A model generated the notes under the pieces. It searched no databases. It was not told the DNA's origin and was given only the letters and a program-made list of their open reading frames with translations. Shown here one piece after another: positions 1 through 17,558 of a stretch of 25,035 nt of DNA (the stretch's first letter is position 1; every line of letters starts with the position of its first letter). Location: positions 1 to 25,035 of the IMG/VR virus record IMGVR_UViG_3300025118_000138, one strand, 5' to 3'. The DNA is from a virus. A program made the position numbers and the translations under genes.

Positions 1-3000
1 GGAATATTTCTAAATCACCACCCGTTCCAAATATAGCTTTAGCACTATCAGCAAATTCAAGAGCATTATCTGATTTATCCCAAACAACATTATTAGCAGC
101 ACCGGTAAATGTTACATCACCATCAATAGTTAACCCAGTAAGAGTTCCAAGACTAGTAATTGCAGATTGAGCAGCACCAGTAACAGTTGCAGCACTTCCA
201 CTCGTATTACCTGTGACGTTTCCAGTTAACGCACCAACAAAGCTTGTAGCTGTTAACGCTCCAGAACTAGAGTTAAAGGTTAAATTACTTCCAGATTTAG
301 CTCCTAGATCGCCTGTTGCAGCAGTCGCAAATAATGGGAAACAAGTCGTATCAGATGATTCATCAGCAACCGTAATTGCAGTTGCTACGGCTGCTGTTCC
401 AGTACATGAGCCTGACGATCCAGAAGCATTACCTGTTACATTTCCAGTTAACGCACCAACAAAGCTTGTAGCTGTTAACGCTCCAGAACTAGAGTTAAAG
501 GTTAAATTACTTCCAGATTTAGCTCCTAGATCACCTGTTGCAGCAGTCGCAAATAATGGGAAACAAGTCGTATCAGATGATTCATCAGCAACCGTAATTG
601 CAGTTGCTATGGCTGCTGTTCCAGTACATGAACCTGACGATCCAGAAGCATTACCTGTTACATCTCCAGTTACATCTCCAGTTACATCTCCAGTTACATC
701 TCCAGTTACATCTCCAGTTAAAGTAGCTGTTATTCCTGAACTATTTACTGTACATTTTGTAGATCCTCCAACCTGTAAAAGAATATCCCCAGTACCAGCG
801 TCATTTATAACTGAATGACTAGCATTATGGAATATTTCTAAATCACCACCCGTTCCAAATATAGCTTTAGCACTATCAGCAAATTCAAGAGCATTATCTG
901 ATTTATCCCAAACAACATTATTAGCAGCACCGGTAAATGTTACATCTCCATCATGTGTAGCTCCATCATCTACAACTGTGCCAGTTACATCGATGCCTCC
1001 AGTAACCGTGTCTAATTTTTTACTTCCCTCATAATATAACTCTGCAGTCGTTGCTGTTGTTCTAATTAAATCATTACCAGCGCTATCTTCTATCGTGAAA
1101 GTGTCACTCTGTACAATAATCGCACCCGTACCGGCATCAGTTATATAGCTATTACTTCCATCATGATAAATTTGTAAATCTGAACCAGTACCAAATGCAG
1201 CTTTAGCATTATCATTGAATATCAAATCATCAACTGACTTATCCCAAGTAACGTTAGCAGCATCACCAGTAAATGTGACATCTCCATTAAGAGTAGTAGC
1301 TCCAGTGACTGATAAAGGTGTAGCAGGATTAGTAAGTCCTATTCCAACATTACCCCCTGAGAAATAAATATCATCCCCTGTTGTTACCCACTGTCCACTA
1401 GGATCAGAAATCCAAGAAAGTGTCCCACTACCATCCGAAGCTAATATGTAATTTGCTCCCGCAGCGTCAGCAGCTGGTAACGTATAAGTGATATTGCTAG
1501 CAACAGTACTTGGAGCTTTAAAAGAGATATAATTACTTGAATCAGCATCCGCATAACGCAACTCATTCTGAGCATTAATCTGGATATCCCCAGTTACATT
1601 GACACCCCCAGTAACCGTTTCTAACTTCTTACTACCGTCATAATATAATTCTGCAGCAGTTGCTGTCGTATTGATTAAATTATTACCGGCACTATCTTTT
1701 ACAGTAATAGTGTCACTTTTCAGAATAAGAGAACCAGTACCGGTATCAGTTATATAACTATTACTTCCATCATGATAAACCTCTAAACCATCGCTACTAG
1801 TACCAAATACAGCTTTAGCATTATCATTGAATATCAAATCATCAACTGATTTATCCCAAGTAACGTTAGCCGCTGCACCTGTAAATATTACATCTCCATC
1901 ATGTGTAGCTCCATCATCTACAACTGTTCCAGTTACATTTATTCCTCCAGAAACAGTCTGAAGCTTACTTGAATTGTCATAATAAAGATTTACAGCCCCA
2001 TCGAGTGTGCAATCTATATAATTCTCTCCACTTGCACTTTCTAAAATAAGATTACTGGCCATGACATGGAGATTTCCAGTTCCAGCGTCTTTGACATAGC
2101 TATTACTTCCGTCGTGGTAAATTTCTAAATCACCACTTGTTCCAAATACCGATTTAGCATTATCGTTAAATATTAAATCATCAGCTGACTTATCCCAAGT
2201 AACGTTAGCAGCATCACCAGTAAATGTGACATCTCCATCGTGTGTTGCACCATCATCTACAACTGTTCCAGTTACATTTATTCCTCCAGAAACAGTCTGA
2301 AGCTTACTTGAATTGTCATAATAGAGAGCTACAGCACCGTCAGCTGCGGCTGTGAAGAAAGTCTCACTACCAGCTGCATTAGCTAAGATATAACTATCAG
2401 TCCGGGGTCTAATAACTGTACCTTTGAGAATTAAATCGCCTGTACCCCCATCTTCTACATAACTGTTACTTCCGTCGTGATAAATCTGTAGATCTGAACC
2501 AGTACCAAATGCAGCTTTAGCATTATCATTGAATATCAAATCATCAACTGACTTATCCCAAACAACGTTGGCAGCAGCACCAGTGAACGTTACATCTCCG
2601 TCGTGTGTCGCACCATCATCTACGACTGTTCCGGTAATATTTATACCTCCAGTTACCGTCTGAAGTTTACTTGAATTGTCATAATAAATAGCTACTGAAC
2701 CATCCGAAGTACACTCTATATAGTTCTCTCCACTTGCATTCTCTAAAACAAGATTAGTCCCCATAACCTGGAGATTCCCAGTTCCAGCATCTTTGATATA
2801 ACTATTACTCCCGTCGTGATATATCTGTAAATCATTAGCTGATCCTACCTGAATCTTTTTATTATCTGGGAAATTAAATCCATTCCCATCCATAGTGAAA
2901 ATCTGGGTCCCATTAGCAGTAAGGCCTACTGTTCCACTAGAAACTGAATACAATCCTGTATCAGTATCATTACTAAAAGTAATACTTGGTGCAGTTTCAC

Positions 3001-3325
3001 TACCAGAAGGAAATTCTGTACCTACCGTGACATAATCTGCACCTGATAAAATTACACCAAAAAATGCATGCCCACCAGTAGGAGCAGAGCTGAATACAAT
3101 ATTGTTCCCTAATACTTTGAAACCTGAACTACCAGTCGGATCTGGTTCCTGTACAATATTGTTAACCGAAATATAAATCTGCTGAGTATTAATTGGAAAG
3201 GGTATAGGAACTACACCACCAACCAGTAAAGCGAATGATGTCGTACTCCCATTAAAGCTAGAGCTTATATCATCAATAATCCGATTACCTGATTCAGCAA
3301 CCTGCAGATCATTCCCAATATACAT
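1..3325 (-). CDS. Large repeat-built tail fibre protein, C-terminally partial
   Basis: The frame is open from an ATG at 3325 to the left edge, giving at least 1108 residues. An in-frame TAA lies 6-8 nt upstream of the ATG, which fixes the start. The product is low-complexity, rich in Gly, Asn, Ser, Thr and Asp. It carries at least five copies of a D-L-x-I-Y-H-D-G-S-N-S-Y motif (near 2815, 2475, 2110, 1770 and 1165) and two degenerate versions (near 830 and 20). These alternate with segments like V-V-D-D-G-A-T-H-D-G-D-V and V-W-D-K-S. This repeat style is typical of cyanophage tail fibres and fits a long beta-structured trimer used for host binding. The residues near the left edge repeat those around 829-946, so the array probably continues beyond the window. 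A NATAAATA box lies 42 nt upstream. The role is inferred from repeat style and position. Confidence 0.85.
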   Translation of the reverse strand, partial: MYIGNDLQVAESGNRIIDDISSSFNGSTTSFALLVGGVVPIPFPINTQQIYISVNNIVQEPDPTGSSGFKVLGNNIVFSSAPTGGHAFFGVILSGADYVTVGTEFPSGSETAPSITFSNDTDTGLYSVSSGTVGLTANGTQIFTMDGNGFNFPDNKKIQVGSANDLQIYHDGSNSYIKDAGTGNLQVMGTNLVLENASGENYIECTSDGSVAIYYDNSSKLQTVTGGINITGTVVDDGATHDGDVTFTGAAANVVWDKSVDDLIFNDNAKAAFGTGSDLQIYHDGSNSYVEDGGTGDLILKGTVIRPRTDSYILANAAGSETFFTAAADGAVALYYDNSSKLQTVSGGINVTGTVVDDGATHDGDVTFTGDAANVTWDKSADDLIFNDNAKSVFGTSGDLEIYHDGSNSYVKDAGTGNLHVMASNLILESASGENYIDCTLDGAVNLYYDNSSKLQTVSGGINVTGTVVDDGATHDGDVIFTGAAANVTWDKSVDDLIFNDNAKAVFGTSSDGLEVYHDGSNSYITDTGTGSLILKSDTITVKDSAGNNLINTTATAAELYYDGSKKLETVTGGVNVTGDIQINAQNELRYADADSSNYISFKAPSTVASNITYTLPAADAAGANYILASDGSGTLSWISDPSGQWVTTGDDIYFSGGNVGIGLTNPATPLSVTGATTLNGDVTFTGDAANVTWDKSVDDLIFNDNAKAAFGTGSDLQIYHDGSNSYITDAGTGAIIVQSDTFTIEDSAGNDLIRTTATTAELYYEGSKKLDTVTGGIDVTGTVVDDGATHDGDVTFTGAANNVVWDKSDNALEFADSAKAIFGTGGDLEIFHNASHSVINDAGTGDILLQVGGSTKCTVNSSGITATLTGDVTGDVTGDVTGDVTGDVTGNASGSSGSCTGTAAIATAITVADESSDTTCFPLFATAATGDLGAKSGSNLTFNSSSGALTATSFVGALTGNVTGNASGSSGSCTGTAAVATAITVADESSDTTCFPLFATAATGDLGAKSGSNLTFNSSSGALTATSFVGALTGNVTGNTSGSAATVTGAAQSAITSLGTLTGLTIDGDVTFTGAANNVVWDKSDNALEFADSAKAIFGTGGDLEIF
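219..662 (-). repeat. Two tandem 222-nt near-identical repeats inside the fibre gene
   Basis: Positions 219-440 and 441-662 are nearly identical at a 222-nt shift (74 codons, in frame); by eye only a few substitutions separate them. Each encodes a segment with the motif A-D-E-S-S-D-T-T-C-F-P-L-F. The near identity suggests recent duplication or ongoing homogenisation. Confidence 0.9.
660..719 (-). repeat. Five perfect 12-nt tandem repeats (T-G-D-V) in the fibre gene
   Basis: The unit acatctccagtt (plus strand) occurs five times without interruption and encodes Thr-Gly-Asp-Val repeats on the minus strand. It directly follows the 222-nt duplication. A 12-nt period keeps the frame whatever the copy number, so slippage would change fibre length without breaking the gene. 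Confidence 0.9.
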
Positions 3326-7933: not shown

Positions 7934-8576
7934 CTCAGGATTCTATAATTTTGGAACTATTGAAGCATATCCAACAGGAGGAACAGGGCCTACAGCATAT
8001 GGACCAACTTCGTATTATGGCTCTGATCCTCTACCAGCAAACACTGGGGATAGTCTTAATAACCCAGTAGATTTAGGTACTTTCCCATCTATATTTCGAT
8101 CAATTCCAATAAAGAATACACATGGTGGATTATCCAGAAAGCAGACAACTTTTTATAAATTAAAACTACCAGGAGCACGGGCAGTTCAATTTACTCAAGA
8201 TTATTCACAATTTTCTTATGAAAAGAATACAAATAAAAATACTTTACTAGCTTTTTATCGAATAACTGAAGATAAACTGAGAGAAGAGCTACCTATAAAT
8301 GATGAGGGCTATGTATATACAGAAAGTGCAATTGATTATTTAGATGAAAGTGTAATAAGCGGCGTTGAATCAGAATATCCGACAACAAACTTAGCTGCAG
8401 GAGACTATTTATTTCTAATTACAAATGATATTCGATATTTAGAGACAACTTATTCAATAACTCTAAATATTAATCTTCTCGATTGGGGGAAAGTTATTGA
8501 TGAAGTTGATGCTTCAATACTATTTGAATTTGTAACTGATGTAGTCACAGATGCCCTTGACTTTGAAAACGTTTAA
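7902..8576 (+). CDS. Beta-sandwich protein, PPC-like, cyanophage type
   Basis: A 224-residue protein. Residues ~45-210 (D-S-L-N-N-P-V-D-L-G-T, F-Y-K-L-K-L-P-G, L-A-A-G-D-Y-L-F-L-I-T-N, Y-S-I-T-L-N-I) follow the plan of bacterial pre-peptidase C-terminal (PPC) beta-sandwich domains. These domains often occur in secreted or surface proteins. There is no signal peptide; the first ~30 residues are Gly/Pro/Tyr-rich. I have a general memory of similar proteins in marine cyanophages, without known function. Its TAA stop shares a TTAA palindrome with the stop of the convergent Hint-domain gene. A virion surface role is possible but unproven. Confidence 0.5.
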   Translation: MSRFLTTIPNNSGFYNFGTIEAYPTGGTGPTAYGPTSYYGSDPLPANTGDSLNNPVDLGTFPSIFRSIPIKNTHGGLSRKQTTFYKLKLPGARAVQFTQDYSQFSYEKNTNKNTLLAFYRITEDKLREELPINDEGYVYTESAIDYLDESVISGVESEYPTTNLAAGDYLFLITNDIRYLETTYSITLNINLLDWGKVIDEVDASILFEFVTDVVTDALDFENV

Positions 8577-9664
8577 GCGCACTCACGGAGCCCCTTAACA
8601 AAGAACGCAACTTCGGCTAATGCATCATTAACTTCAGTACTTTCTAATGGAGCAATATCAACTTTAAGACGTTCATCACATAAACCTAAGAAACCACCGC
8701 CGCCGCCGCTATCGTCAGCCAAAGGTGCTCTATCAGGATAGAAAACATCTGGCTTAGGATCTCTAGGTTCAACATAGATATTTCTATCTCTCCAGTCCTC
8801 ATAGATAGGCTCCCAATCCATATCAGCCCAAGCGGGTTCTCTAAATTCTTCAGTTGGTTGGAATCCAGTAGCAATTTCTTCATCTCTCCGACTCTGCGCT
8901 AAGTCATAAGCTCTTTGAGCTCTTAAAGTTCTCTCAGAAGGCTCTCTGTCTTGTGCCATCTCAAAAGCTTCTTTCCCTGAATAACCTGCATTACGTAACT
9001 CTCGTTTATGACTTCTGGCATCAGTCCTATCTTCCTTTTGTGCATACGCTAACTCTGTTCTATCCCGGTTTAAGCGTTGCTGTAGTGGAGTTACACCACG
9101 ATCAAAATCCTTTTGCTCAAGATTTTGTCTAAGTTCATGATTCCGTCTCATCACATCAGCCATTTGCTGATATGTTGCTTTTGGAGTTATCTCATGAACA
9201 ATAGTCGGAGGAGTAGGTGCAGAAGGGACAAAAACAGGTGGTGGAGGACCAACCTGTTCTTTATTTCCATTATGTAGAAGTACTCCATCACATACGTATG
9301 TATGTGCACCTTCGACTATTATTTCAACTGAATCGCCTGTCCCTAATTTCTCTGAATCAGTAAATTCTAATTCACCATCCAATTGAGAAACTTTATCTCC
9401 TTCCTCTAAATCAATTGCACTAAGCCAACTTTTCCTACTAGGAGAATAAAAACGATCTTCTTCTGAACAAGTAAATTTCCTACCTGAGAAGTTAAGATTA
9501 ACTAAAGGAGATTCAACAATTCGAACATAGCTAATCTCAGCCTCACCTCTTTTTAAAGTATGTTGATGAAGAGTATCTAATTTATCGCCTATTTTTAGAT
9601 CTCTTATCGTTTTAGTAACGCCTCCTGCTAAGAGGACCTCCATATCAGGTACGCGGACACCCAT
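8573..9664 (-). CDS. Hint-domain protein with short C-terminal S74-like motif
   Basis: A 363-residue protein. Residues 1-135 read as a Hint (intein/hedgehog-type) domain: P-D-M-E-V-L-L-A-G-G, D-L-K-I-G-D-K, a C-S-E-E-D-R-F block, a D-L-E-E-G-D-K-V loop, and the terminal G-V-L-L-H-N-G. The final His-Asn typical of these domains is present. The N-terminal Cys is absent (V-R-V-P-D), and the block-B T-x-x-H is changed to S-E-E-D. Residues ~160-320 are charged, helical and coiled-coil-like. The C-terminus has a poly-Gly run, then C-D-E-R-L-K-V-D-I-A-P-L. That resembles the S-D-x-R-L-K-x-x-I start of peptidase S74 intramolecular chaperones, with Cys in place of Ser. Only ~37 residues follow, far short of a full S74 domain. 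Similar C-D-E-R-L-K endings occur, to my memory, in cyanophage structural proteins. Confidence 0.65.
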   Translation of the reverse strand: MGVRVPDMEVLLAGGVTKTIRDLKIGDKLDTLHQHTLKRGEAEISYVRIVESPLVNLNFSGRKFTCSEEDRFYSPSRKSWLSAIDLEEGDKVSQLDGELEFTDSEKLGTGDSVEIIVEGAHTYVCDGVLLHNGNKEQVGPPPPVFVPSAPTPPTIVHEITPKATYQQMADVMRRNHELRQNLEQKDFDRGVTPLQQRLNRDRTELAYAQKEDRTDARSHKRELRNAGYSGKEAFEMAQDREPSERTLRAQRAYDLAQSRRDEEIATGFQPTEEFREPAWADMDWEPIYEDWRDRNIYVEPRDPKPDVFYPDRAPLADDSGGGGGFLGLCDERLKVDIAPLESTEVNDALAEVAFFVKGLRECA

Positions 9665-12173: not shown

Positions 12174-12920
12174 TCAAACATTTCGAACCGAACGCGGCGG
12201 AGATCCTAGACCACTGGGCTTTTGAGTCCAATAACGAAAAAAACGACGTAGAACTTCCCCAGAAGGGTCCCAATCAAGCAGCTTTTTCTCAAGATATTCA
12301 ATTGCTTTCAACTGATTGGGAGCCCCAGTATAAGTCTCAGGGAGATTTAGTAGGCATCTCTTCACCCGACAACGATGAGGTACTAACGTGGGAATCTCTT
12401 TATCTGCAGCGTAATAGATATCCAATTCAACACGACGTTTATCTATCATTAGATCACCACCAGATGTCCAAAGACGATTGATATAAGGACTCCATTCTCG
12501 GATAATCTTATTCTTCCCTGAAGAAGTATTTATCAACTCCAATAAACGACAAGTCTTGAATGAAGATATTCCAATACTATGAGCGAAACTGAGTAATGCT
12601 GCTTTTCGATTAGTATTTAAAGGAACTAGAACATATTGCGCCACTAAATCAGAAAACTCTTTCAAGTCTTCTTCGAGTTGGAGGTCTATTTCTTCCTTAG
12701 TTGCCTTATCAACAGAATTAAGCCATCTTTTACCAAGCTTTTTACTTCCATAACCAATCCGCCATATACTTTCTCCATAATCTTTATAAGAAGCATAACG
12801 ACCCATACCAAGATGAGTACGAGGTAAAGTATGCTGCTTTATTAAATTAATACCTTTTCGAGTTAGGAAAGGATGCTCTTTCCATCTAGTCTGTATTTTC
12901 CGTTTCTTATGGGACGACAA
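12174..12920 (-). CDS. GH24-like phage lysozyme (endolysin), cyanophage type
   Basis: A 248-residue protein with a TTG start overlapping the upstream gene by 14 nt. Residues ~42-60 (Y-K-D-Y-G-E, R-I-G-Y-G) and ~100-131 (L-N-T-N-R-K-A-A-L-L-S-F-A, then L-L-E-L-I-N) match T4-type muramidases of family GH24. The C-terminal extension (~165-240, L-N-L-P-E-T-Y-T-G-A-P) matches my memory of a lysozyme family in marine cyanophages. In T4 lysozyme the triad is Glu11-Asp20-Thr26. Asp47 is conserved here, but I see Leu/Gly rather than Glu nine residues before it, and Arg instead of Thr before I-G-Y-G. It may use another acid, or be structural. It should act on host peptidoglycan if active, with the holin-like protein at 15232-15690. 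Confidence 0.65.
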   Translation of the reverse strand: MSSHKKRKIQTRWKEHPFLTRKGINLIKQHTLPRTHLGMGRYASYKDYGESIWRIGYGSKKLGKRWLNSVDKATKEEIDLQLEEDLKEFSDLVAQYVLVPLNTNRKAALLSFAHSIGISSFKTCRLLELINTSSGKNKIIREWSPYINRLWTSGGDLMIDKRRVELDIYYAADKEIPTLVPHRCRVKRCLLNLPETYTGAPNQLKAIEYLEKKLLDWDPSGEVLRRFFRYWTQKPSGLGSPPRSVRNV

Positions 12921-13290
12921 CGCTACCGCTGTAATTAACCTCAGAATAGCCGTCTAACTTTAATAAAACAACGTAATTTTTGGCTGCATTTGTCACTGTT
13001 ACCCCAACTACACCCTTACCTTTACCATCACGAGCAATGTTTGTAAACTTTTTATACCCAGTAGGAGCACTTCCCCCTGTATAAGCATCTTCTTGAAAAA
13101 TTTCCATAGTATTAATTCCACTACTCTTATCAAGTGTCACCTTGATATCCCCAGTACCACCAGGATTTACACGAAATCCGCGGATAGCTTCTCCGGGATT
13201 GTTTGCTGCAGTAGACCCAAGATAAGTAACCTCAGATCCGGTATCAACGCTTTGAGTATCTAGAGTGCCGTCAATAGTACGAGTAGCCAT
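12907..13290 (-). CDS. Small beta-rich protein, probable virion component
   Basis: A 127-residue protein starting M-A-T-R-T-I-D-G-T-L. It is Gly, Thr and Val rich with alternating strands and a basic G-K-G-K turn at ~90, with no TM segment or signal peptide. It resembles small cyanophage virion proteins such as those at 3397-3738 and 22718-23062 in overall style. A CTAAATA motif overlaps the stop codon of the upstream NblA-like gene just before its ATG. Its 3' end overlaps the lysozyme start by 14 nt. Function is inferred only from composition. Confidence 0.55.
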   Translation of the reverse strand: MATRTIDGTLDTQSVDTGSEVTYLGSTAANNPGEAIRGFRVNPGGTGDIKVTLDKSSGINTMEIFQEDAYTGGSAPTGYKKFTNIARDGKGKGVVGVTVTNAAKNYVVLLKLDGYSEVNYSGSVVVP

Positions 13291-13295
13291 GGTAT

Positions 13296-13511
13296 TTAGG
13301 AAATTTGCTCCATCGTGGAAAGATTGAATTTAATGTCAGCATCTATACCATGATCCTTTAAAATATTAAAGAACATCTGGCGATCCAGAGCTTTTTGATG
13401 AAGCATTTCAACAAATGCTTCTTCTAAAGAACTGCGATCAAGATTCTGAATTGCAAGAGAAGCAGCGTGAATTGAAAATTCTACGTCAACTGGAAGCTCT
13501 AATGCATCCAT
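13296..13511 (-). CDS. NblA-like phycobilisome-degradation adaptor
   Basis: A 71-residue helical protein. Residues ~6-53 align without gaps to the NblA pattern: L-P-V-D-V-E-F-S-I at the start (NblA: L-S-L-E-Q-E-F-K-L), I-Q-N-L in the centre, then L-E-E-A-F-V-E-M, a conserved Gln, and F-F-N-I-L-K. NblA is a small dimer that bridges phycobiliproteins to the Clp protease and triggers phycobilisome breakdown. Homologues are known in freshwater cyanophages and have been reported in uncultured marine cyanophages. The gene follows a TATAAATA box by 18 nt, which suggests late expression. The C-terminal ~15 residues (D-I-K-F-N-L-S) extend past the usual end. The alignment is by eye, so an unrelated short helical protein cannot be excluded. 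Confidence 0.55.
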   Translation of the reverse strand: MDALELPVDVEFSIHAASLAIQNLDRSSLEEAFVEMLHQKALDRQMFFNILKDHGIDADIKFNLSTMEQIS

Positions 13512-13528
13512 AAAAAATTAAAACCTTA

Positions 13529-13536
13529 TATTTATA
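13529..13536 (-). promoter_or_regulatory. Candidate T4-late-type promoter box (TATAAATA)
   Basis: An exact TATAAATA on the minus strand, 18 nt upstream of the NblA-like ATG and just after the stop codon of the 46-residue gene. Orientation and spacing suit the NblA-like gene and the genes after it. Confidence 0.45.
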
Positions 13537-13677
13537 TTACCAGCGCTGAACTGAGGTGGCAATTATTCTTCTAGAGTAGCTCTCTCTATGCTTTTCCATA
13601 GTACGCCTGAGAAGTAACGTACTAAACCCATAACTCCCACTAAAAAGAATTGCAAAACTGAGAACAATAGCTTCCAT
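13537..13677 (-). CDS. Small single-TM protein (46 aa)
   Basis: The ATG at 13677 lies one nucleotide after the stop of the upstream gene. The product begins M-E-A-I-V-L-S-F-A-I-L-F-S-G-S and has one hydrophobic segment (~3-25), followed by a basic tail (R-R-T-M-E-K-H-R-E-S-Y-S-R-R). An inner-membrane anchor with the basic tail in the cytoplasm fits the positive-inside rule. It lies among lysis-related genes, so a lysis accessory role is possible, but nothing specific is recognised. Confidence 0.5.
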   Translation of the reverse strand: MEAIVLSFAILFSGSYGFSTLLLRRTMEKHRESYSRRIIATSVQRW

Positions 13678-14397: not shown

Positions 14398-15195
14398 TTA
14401 GTGTTCTCTAAAATTAACCCAACACCAACCAGAAGCTCCTCCACTTGCAAATAATCTTGGATTCATATTTTTAAAACTATATTGAACATTCTGTCCTGAG
14501 AACTGGCTTCTATCAGACCATAAACCATTAACTAAATCCATTTTTCCAAAAGGATCCTGAACTTGCCAATAGTCTTTACCATATCCGGTAATCGCTACAA
14601 GATGAGTCCCACGAATGGGATTAGTAACATCACCTCTAACTAATAAACTTGCAGCAACAGGGCGCCCACTATGCAATTCTTCTTGAATATCTAAAGAATC
14701 CGCAGATAAAGTAAAGTTCGCATTCATTCCAAATTCATTTAAAGTTTTCTTATGTGCCTCTCTAGAAGACCCCTTACCATGCTTATTAAGTACTTCTAAA
14801 TAATCCATAACCCCATTAATACCAGGGGTATCGAGATACTTCAAACACATAGCAAGAGTAAATACTTGACTATTATTCCATCTATTCGAGGCCTGTGGGT
14901 AATAAGGGAAACCTCTTAAGTAGATCAAATCTCTATCAATTGAATAAGGTAATTGACGTTTCTCATCTGTTAAACCATCCCAGTGTTCATCATCAATCCA
15001 CCAATCTCCTAAACCTGTTCTTAAATATGTATGATTACTATCTCGATCTAGAACTTGACAGCGACGTATAGATCTAGCTGATAAAATTTCAGCTTTATCA
15101 CCAGAAGTGAGTTCTGACACATCAATGGGTCTTTTCTTCAACCATGTTCGACATCGAGATATAACAGAAACCCATCCCCAATGAAGGTTAGGCAT
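14398..15195 (-). CDS. C39-like cysteine peptidase-fold protein, probable lysis or wall-active
   Basis: A 265-residue protein. Residues ~32-75 form a small SH3-like region ending D-W-W-I-D-D-E-H-W. From ~95 it follows the C39-like peptidase plan: F-P-Y-Y-P-Q, then N-N-S-Q-V-F-T-L-A-M-C-L-K-Y-L (107-121). The expected His comes in G-T-H-L-V-A-I-T-G-Y (His198) and Asp in Q-D-P-F-G (Asp214). In my alignment the nucleophile position, normally Cys before x-V-T-x-L-A-M, is Ser109. The nearby Cys117 is a different position, so activity is uncertain. Similar proteins occur in cyanophages as putative wall-cleaving enzymes. It lies just downstream of the holin-like gene, which supports a lysis role. 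The start is assumed to be the ATG at 15195. Confidence 0.5.
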   Translation of the reverse strand: MPNLHWGWVSVISRCRTWLKKRPIDVSELTSGDKAEILSARSIRRCQVLDRDSNHTYLRTGLGDWWIDDEHWDGLTDEKRQLPYSIDRDLIYLRGFPYYPQASNRWNNSQVFTLAMCLKYLDTPGINGVMDYLEVLNKHGKGSSREAHKKTLNEFGMNANFTLSADSLDIQEELHSGRPVAASLLVRGDVTNPIRGTHLVAITGYGKDYWQVQDPFGKMDLVNGLWSDRSQFSGQNVQYSFKNMNPRLFASGGASGWCWVNFREH

Positions 15196-15231: not shown

Positions 15232-15690
15232 CTACATAGTGTACGTAGTTTTTTCTGAAGGATCTTCAGCCTTAATTACTAATGGAGCCTGCTCAATCCT
15301 AATAGTTTGTACAGCAGAATTTGCTGCAGCTTTTTCAATCATCTGCTCCATATCTTTCTTACTAACTTGGCCATTACTATCACCATTCATTTTCATCGTG
15401 CCATCACCCTTTTTAGAGGCTGTAGCAATCCCAAAAGACGCCAAAACTCCCGTGAACACTGAAGCTATGAAGGTTGGATCTATCTTCTGTTGAGGAACTC
15501 CTGGAATAGCAACGTAATTTAAAGTTAATATTCCTCCGCTCCAAACCAATACTCCAATTCTGACCATTGTGGAGATGATTGCAGCCTGTTCTTCCTGATC
15601 AGGTAATAGTGCATCTTTGACTTTGCCAAGCACACTTTTCTTTTTAGGAGAATCCTTTTTCTTAGGATCCTCAATCACATTTTCAGACAT
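15232..15690 (-). CDS. Two-TM holin-like membrane protein
   Basis: A 152-residue protein with a lysine-rich N-terminus (K-K-K-D-S-P-K-K-K). It has two hydrophobic segments at ~37-63 and ~72-92, separated by a short P-G-V-P-Q-Q loop, and a long hydrophilic C-terminal tail. Size and topology suit a class II-like holin or antiholin, and it is followed by a putative wall-active enzyme. Cyanophage membrane proteins of this sort are often hypothetical, so holin is the best guess rather than a recognition. The gene starts 72 nt from the divergent plus-strand gene at 15762, with a perfect hairpin between them. Confidence 0.5.
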   Translation of the reverse strand: MSENVIEDPKKKDSPKKKSVLGKVKDALLPDQEEQAAIISTMVRIGVLVWSGGILTLNYVAIPGVPQQKIDPTFIASVFTGVLASFGIATASKKGDGTMKMNGDSNGQVSKKDMEQMIEKAAANSAVQTIRIEQAPLVIKAEDPSEKTTYTM

Positions 15691-16760: not shown

Positions 16761-17558
16761 ATGGCTTTGGCAACTGATGTTGGAGGAGTATCAGCAACTG
16801 CAAATCCGGTCGCAAACTCCTCAGGAAGCGTTACTAATCAAGCTATACAAGTTCTACAAGGTCCATATATAACTAATACTTATGGAGATGGAATCAGTTG
16901 TCAGGGTCCTACCCTCAACATCACGCCCTTCTTAGCTGATAGTAAATCTTGGCAGATTCCTAAGGAAGAATATTATGATCAACCTGTCTATGACATGACA
17001 ACTGATGATGATGGGAACTTAAAAAATCCAGGAGATATTGTTTATTACGTACCTACTAGAACTGGTCAAAAAGATACTTTTAACTTTAATTGGGGAATAT
17101 CAGCAACTATAGCTGTCCCATTAGATGAGCAATTACAAGATCAATGTAAACAATCTGCAAACAGTCAAATATCCTACAGAAATCAATTAGTAGCAAATAA
17201 AAGATTAGATTTTGAATTAGCCAGGCTTAAAAATTGTGGGGACTTAATGAAAGAAGGAATTCAATTCCATCCGAAATCACAATATGCAGCTATCTGTGCA
17301 GACGTAATGCTGACACCTATCCCTGGGAAAGTTACACCTCATATACACTCTATTTCCGCATTGCCCGACGAAGCTCCATCACTGCCCGATTCCGAGATCT
17401 CTGAGCAAGAATCCGCTCCCTCAGAGAAAGTTCCTTCGGCTCCTTCCCAAGGATTTTTTGGATTTTTCCGATCACTTTTTTCACGGCAGGCTTCACAACC
17501 TTTAGAAGAAGATCAGCCAGAGGTTTTGCTAGGAGGGCCGATGTCGTTGCCACAGTAG
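16761..17558 (+). CDS. Third secreted protein of the trio; start uncertain
   Basis: The body (V-S-A-T-A-N-P-V-A-N-S-S-G, I-Q-V-L-Q-G-P-Y-I-T-N-T-Y-G, C-Q-G-P) is a conserved cyanophage protein to my memory; homologues have a signal peptide. Here the in-frame residues just upstream of the ATG at 16761 read L-K-Y-L-F-I-T-L-L-N-T-I-I-F, a good signal core. However, no ATG, GTG or TTG exists between the previous stop (16711-16713) and 16761. A start at 16542 would lie deep inside the preceding gene. Using 16761 gives 265 residues without the signal core, and no Shine-Dalgarno is seen. The last ~69 residues, rich in Pro and Ser, overlap the antisense gene at 17350-18108. Confidence 0.55.
   Translation: MALATDVGGVSATANPVANSSGSVTNQAIQVLQGPYITNTYGDGISCQGPTLNITPFLADSKSWQIPKEEYYDQPVYDMTTDDDGNLKNPGDIVYYVPTRTGQKDTFNFNWGISATIAVPLDEQLQDQCKQSANSQISYRNQLVANKRLDFELARLKNCGDLMKEGIQFHPKSQYAAICADVMLTPIPGKVTPHIHSISALPDEAPSLPDSEISEQESAPSEKVPSAPSQGFFGFFRSLFSRQASQPLEEDQPEVLLGGPMSLPQ

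Follow-up and report, generated by a model that had tools for sequence, protein, structure and literature searches.

A conserved NblA-like gene near a lysozyme gene in a marine virus lineage related to cyanophage S-EIV1

We analyzed a 25-kb IMG/VR virus record (25,035 nucleotides in full, hereafter the window). An open reading frame (ORF) on its minus strand, at positions 13296-13511 with the stop codon included, starts with ATG and encodes a protein of 71 aa. Residues 5-52 (13356-13499, minus) make up an NblA-like domain, delimited by hhalign and AlphaFold, and residues 53-71 (13299-13355, minus; DHGIDADIKFN...) make up a conserved C-terminal tail that is predicted to be disordered. NblA is a cyanobacterial adaptor that feeds the light-harvesting antenna, the phycobilisome, to a protease. 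The NblA-like gene belongs to a minus-strand run that consists of a peptidase C39-like protein (14398-15195), small ORFs, the NblA-like gene itself, a 127-aa protein directly downstream (12907-13290), and a lysozyme (Phage_lysozyme; 12174-12920), and this order was kept in most relatives. The nearest upstream neighbor on the same strand is an ORF of 46 aa (13537-13677), the end of which overlaps a promoter-like element. Just upstream of this lysis-type run lies a DUF6450 protein (15232-15690, minus; E 1.6e-33) that is possibly holin-like, judging by a hydrophobic stretch.

The window was 99.99% identical over 20 kb to a longer record, G296 (80,952 bases), which can therefore stand for the genome of the window virus. 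The lineage is related to the cultured phage S-EIV1, as its best protein matches were 54-70% identical over their full length (up to 58% for proteins of the window) and terminase, structural, and replication genes were common to both. An S-EIV1-like prophage is described in S. elongatus UTEX 3055 (PMC9239245). Its DNA polymerase A is one protein of 609 aa related to that of S-EIV1, and identity with the Flores-Uribe and Nadel 2019 lineage, which reportedly has a split DNA polymerase and an integrase, was therefore not favored. Whether the NblA-like gene is core was examined in 19 contigs, drawn from 80 near relatives listed, few of them long, with the lineage reached via a structural gene and not via the NblA-like gene. 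All 10 contigs in which roughly 25 kb or more followed the structural gene on its downstream side carried the NblA-like gene, as did one shorter contig of the 19. Because 10 of 10 suitable contigs have it, the gene looks core in this marine lineage.

Related ORFs were found in at least 226 viral stretches. The close relatives were all 71 aa long with an identical type of tail, and those aligned were 77-93% identical to the window protein. The median dN/dS was 0.077 over 777 pairs; the gene is thus under strong purifying selection, with dN/dS about 0.08. The original prediction had described a C-terminal extension of about 15 residues as unusual. The extension exists and comprises 18-19 residues, but its length is not clearly unusual, since tails in cyanobacterial NblA ORFs measured 0-18 residues (median 11), which places that of the window at the long end. 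The tail following the domain was conserved within the window family (KDHGIDA...), and part of it matched homologs of the S-EIV1 clade described below.

Upstream of the start codon, a conserved AAGG (13524-13527, minus; 12 nt before the ATG) is the likely ribosome-binding site. It is preceded by a sigma-70-like element at 13534-13562 (minus), consisting of TTGCCA and TAATAT 17 nt apart; a TG precedes the second hexamer, and the spacer holds CAGCGCTG. The element was conserved in relatives, in the general form TTGC-N16/17-TAAGAT with CAGCGCTG within the spacer. Thirty-three diverse upstream regions had TTGC...T-A-TTCAGCGCTGgTAagATA in common at -50 to -22, and the same regions carried 1.28 bits per column over -40 to -16 versus 0.15 further upstream. 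Across the window and four long relatives, the NblA-like gene was the only one preceded by close matches to the element (at most 3 mismatches in 18). This arrangement resembles a sigma-70-like promoter whose -10 is of the extended type, and its spacer contains an 8-base palindrome. As the element was noticed in the same sequences, this is a description and not a test, and as the element overlaps the end of the upstream ORF in the window, coding constraint may contribute there. A late-type promoter box had been predicted 18 nt upstream of the gene. The octamer in question, TATAAATA, does occur 17 nt before the ATG (13529-13536, minus). Its six copies in the window versus 2.4 expected (8 of 100 shuffles reached six) are no more than chance, however, and it stood upstream of the gene in only 7 of 72 distinct relatives; the conserved feature is the sigma-70-like element. 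That the octamer is a T4-type late promoter of the NblA-like gene is very improbable, and this reading was rejected because of the near-chance count and the lack of conservation; the conserved element also overlaps the octamer, and the lineage, which has a family A DNA polymerase, resembles S-EIV1 and not T4.

Relationship to NblA (PF04485) was assessed at the level of the single sequence and of the family. On its own, the window protein had no NblA match in Pfam or PHROG searches, and tblastn against named phages with the window protein, a consensus-like family sequence, or Anabaena NblA returned nothing useful. When the window protein was searched against the PDB with phmmer, NblA structures ranked first and second (E 0.05 and 0.14), and a profile of 20 relatives had the NblA structure 3cs5 as its top match (E 0.0015). 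An NblA profile built from 142 matches (81 distinct) in cyanobacterial loci placed all family members above every other ORF in a set of 2,176 from related viral loci, with E 4e-4 for the best member and 0.5 for the next ORF, the members being mutually non-independent. The first match of the window-family profile in cyanobacterial genomes was an NblA locus (E 0.001); its weaker matches there were mostly non-NblA. A significant HMM match to PF04485, which the original prediction had asked for, was thus obtained with the family and not with the single sequence: the window protein fell below the curated Pfam cut-off for NblA (25 bits), and the best lineage member scored 20.4 bits.

Column shuffles with hhalign showed that the gap-free match to NblA proposed from the sequence, some 48 residues long, was beyond chance. 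The window family aligned to the NblA family without gaps over 47 columns (P 9e-6, score 28.7), and the maximum in 200 column shuffles was 22.9. With divergent lineage members added, the score rose to 32.2 (P 1.6e-6; maximum of 300 shuffles 19.9), and with the S-EIV1 clade also added P was 2.9e-9; the shuffle controls cover the first two comparisons. AlphaFold was run on single chains with viral-only alignments, and the two models had mean pLDDT values of 71 and 75 and pTM values of 0.39 and 0.45. Helices were predicted at about residues 8-21 and 26-53 with a loop between them, and the tail was of low confidence. The short-then-long helix-loop-helix expected for an NblA helix pair was therefore obtained, for a single chain; this predicted arrangement is the NblA layout, though a simple one. 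A PDB fold search with the first two-helix model gave no informative match.

All of the residues named in the original prediction are present (E11-F12, I21-Q22-N23-L24, V34-E35, Q39, and I50-L51-K52). Among 17 non-redundant NblAs, L2, E5, and Q6 of the domain were invariant and F8 nearly so. At the corresponding N-terminal position the window protein has LPVDVEF for LxxEQxF, with L and F kept, E replaced by D, and Q replaced by V; the N-terminal motif that marks NblA members is thus not intact. In L489, a divergent member of the lineage, the sequence is LSVDQEF, near the canonical LSLEQQF. At the other end, I50-L51-K52 aligns with the C-terminal L-L-K of NblA, and K52 was invariant in 20 aligned members. 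Conserved NblA motifs near the N-terminus and near the C-terminus have been reported to bind ClpC and phycobiliproteins, respectively (PMC4103541); by our reading, the ClpC-binding motif is LxxEQxF. Because E5 and Q6 are replaced, we refer to the window protein as NblA-like and not as a canonical NblA. It shares with NblA (structures 1ojh and 3cs5) its size, the gap-free alignment over the whole domain, the helix-loop-helix, the conserved L, F, and Gln, and the C-terminal I/L-L-K, and it differs in its score below the Pfam cut-off, its N-terminal motif, its conserved tail, and its status as a viral core gene.

A homolog in S-EIV1 provides a bridge between the two families. AHV82245.1 (KJ410740, 73902-74222; L318, 33902-34222) lies directly after lysozyme and is annotated as hypothetical, and relatives of it were found in other viral contigs. 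It was recovered by the window-family profile (E 2.9e-5) and by the NblA profile (E 0.0013). Comparison of the S-EIV1 clade with the window family gave P 1.5e-6, with part of the tail included, and one clade member (L344) passed the Pfam NblA cut-off alone (26.2 versus 25 bits). A profile of the clade had matches in 61 of 386 cyanobacterial genomes; those compared by eye lay at PF04485 loci, with one exception that was not among the loci listed. AHV82245.1 and its freshwater viral relatives resemble the window protein in the homologous domain, part of the tail, the lysozyme neighbor, and the relatedness of the phages, and they differ in being about 25% identical, in a longer acidic C-terminus, and in the absence of the C-terminal Lys; their motif, LPLEMQF, is nearer to that of NblA than is the window's. 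On the basis of the profile-profile comparison, the bridging homolog over the Pfam cut-off, and the predicted secondary structure, the window protein is very probably homologous to NblA.

Viral NblAs are already known from freshwater and marine phages, T7-like phages among them, and those of other phages act in, and bleach, cyanobacteria (PMC9602691). The freshwater phages Ma-LMM01, MaMV-DC, and PaV-LD carry an NblA of their own, as the window virus carries an NblA-like protein; unlike the window protein, the NblA of Ma-LMM01 is reported to retain all highly conserved NblA residues (PMC4103541). The T7-like marine cyanophages S-TIP37 and P-SSP7 likewise have marine phage genes that are scored by the NblA profile, but these belong to another phage group and another gene neighborhood and were missed by the window-family profile. 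In S-TIP37, an unannotated ORF (L508, 12287-12706, plus) exceeded the Pfam NblA cut-off if translation was taken to start at an internal Met, and it probably corresponds to the viral NblA already known from this phage group. A 2017 survey listed hli and ptoX, and no nblA, for G238, the group of S-EIV1 (six environmental genomes; PMC5332604).

The likely host was approached through psbA, which the lineage carries. In a tree of 16 sequences, psbA of three lineage genomes, including G296, fell inside the Prochlorococcus-phage side (support 100/99), with weaker support for their position within it; psbA of at least one Synechococcus phage, S-TIM4, was about as close. The G+C content was 40%, versus 46% in S-EIV1. 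Phycobilisomes and nblA are reported to be absent from Prochlorococcus (PMC7439483). Nothing about the host could be read from tRNA genes or Rfam families; a tRNA-Leu (taa) gene was found in one lineage record (G303; L315, 1515-1599, plus), and none in the window or in the three remaining long records. Prochlorococcus retains remnant phycoerythrin genes. We infer Prochlorococcus as host of the lineage from psbA with moderate confidence, since psbA is exchanged between phages.

The best explanation is that the gene product is probably a divergent viral adaptor for proteolysis, of the NblA type; the likelihoods that we attach to homology, adaptor function, and a phycobilisome target overlap, and their sum is not one. 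As such an adaptor, the protein would fold as an NblA-like hairpin, probably as a dimer, its N-terminal segment would engage the host ClpC-ClpP protease, and helix 2 and the tail would bind a host protein. Host light-harvesting or related proteins would then be degraded during infection, which might yield amino acids or alter how photosystems supported by the phage's own psbA are excited. The substrate would be phycobiliproteins if the host is Synechococcus and something else if it is Prochlorococcus. Because of the conserved upstream element, the gene may have a promoter of its own that is used by host-type RNA polymerase. Counting against an adaptor are the lack of a Pfam match for the single protein, the replaced E and Q of the N-terminal motif, the mostly non-NblA weaker matches of the family profile, the uninformative fold search, and a psbA that suggests Prochlorococcus hosts. 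Dismantling of the host antenna, the role first proposed for the gene, is plausible, although it is complicated by the degraded N-terminal motif and by a psbA that points to phycobilisome-free Prochlorococcus.

How the protein would act divides into readings of unequal standing. The canonical function, in which the protein sets off the breakdown of phycobilisomes in a Synechococcus host, has somewhat less than an even chance in our estimation: homology to NblA, retention of the C-terminal I-L-K, the Synechococcus host of S-EIV1, and the bleaching of cyanobacteria by other viral NblAs (PMC9602691) all fit it, but the N-terminal motif is degraded and the psbA of the same virus groups with those of Prochlorococcus phages. 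That last observation, along with the lower G+C content than in S-EIV1, the altered N-terminal motif combined with a conserved tail, and the reported absence of phycobilisomes and nblA from Prochlorococcus (PMC7439483), would suit an NblA-derived protein retargeted in Prochlorococcus, where it might steer ClpC-ClpP to non-phycobilisome proteins or occupy ClpC and so block host proteolysis. We consider such retargeting possible but doubtful, because the psbA evidence is weakened by exchange between phages and by the comparable closeness of S-TIM4, and because the remnant phycoerythrin genes of Prochlorococcus could be the target; that a core NblA-derived adaptor of Prochlorococcus phages directs host Clp proteolysis against a new target outside the phycobilisome is just as doubtful. 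Still less likely is a protein that is no adaptor at all but a small helical late-gene product, accessory to lysis or to the virion, with NblA as its ancestor or with a mere resemblance to it. A fixed place among late genes beside lysozyme, core status, the ease with which two-helix proteins are resembled, and the lack of a Pfam match for the single sequence are compatible with such a product, but the shuffle controls, the bridging homolog over the Pfam cut-off, and the gene's own promoter-like element speak against it.

A viral NblA is a recognized phage route to cutting light harvesting, and a divergent NblA that is a core gene of a lineage, and not an occasional accessory, would widen that effect. 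The comparison also offers a likely, testable identity for an unannotated gene of the cultured phage S-EIV1. If the marine branch infects Prochlorococcus, a role of NblA without a phycobilisome becomes directly testable.

Other features of the window were observed. An open-ended, tail-fiber-like ORF (2-3325, minus; 1,108 aa or more) contains near-identical blocks and long tandem repeats whose units measure 222 and 339 bases; the repeats may confuse assembly. A 363-aa protein (8573-9664, minus), for which Pfam gave no match, has first 130 residues that appear Hint-like (intein-like) by eye and end in LLHN. When named phages were searched with megablast, the window had a single match, the short stretch at 17132-17275, which showed 77% identity to a hypothetical gene in the T4-like phage S-SM2.
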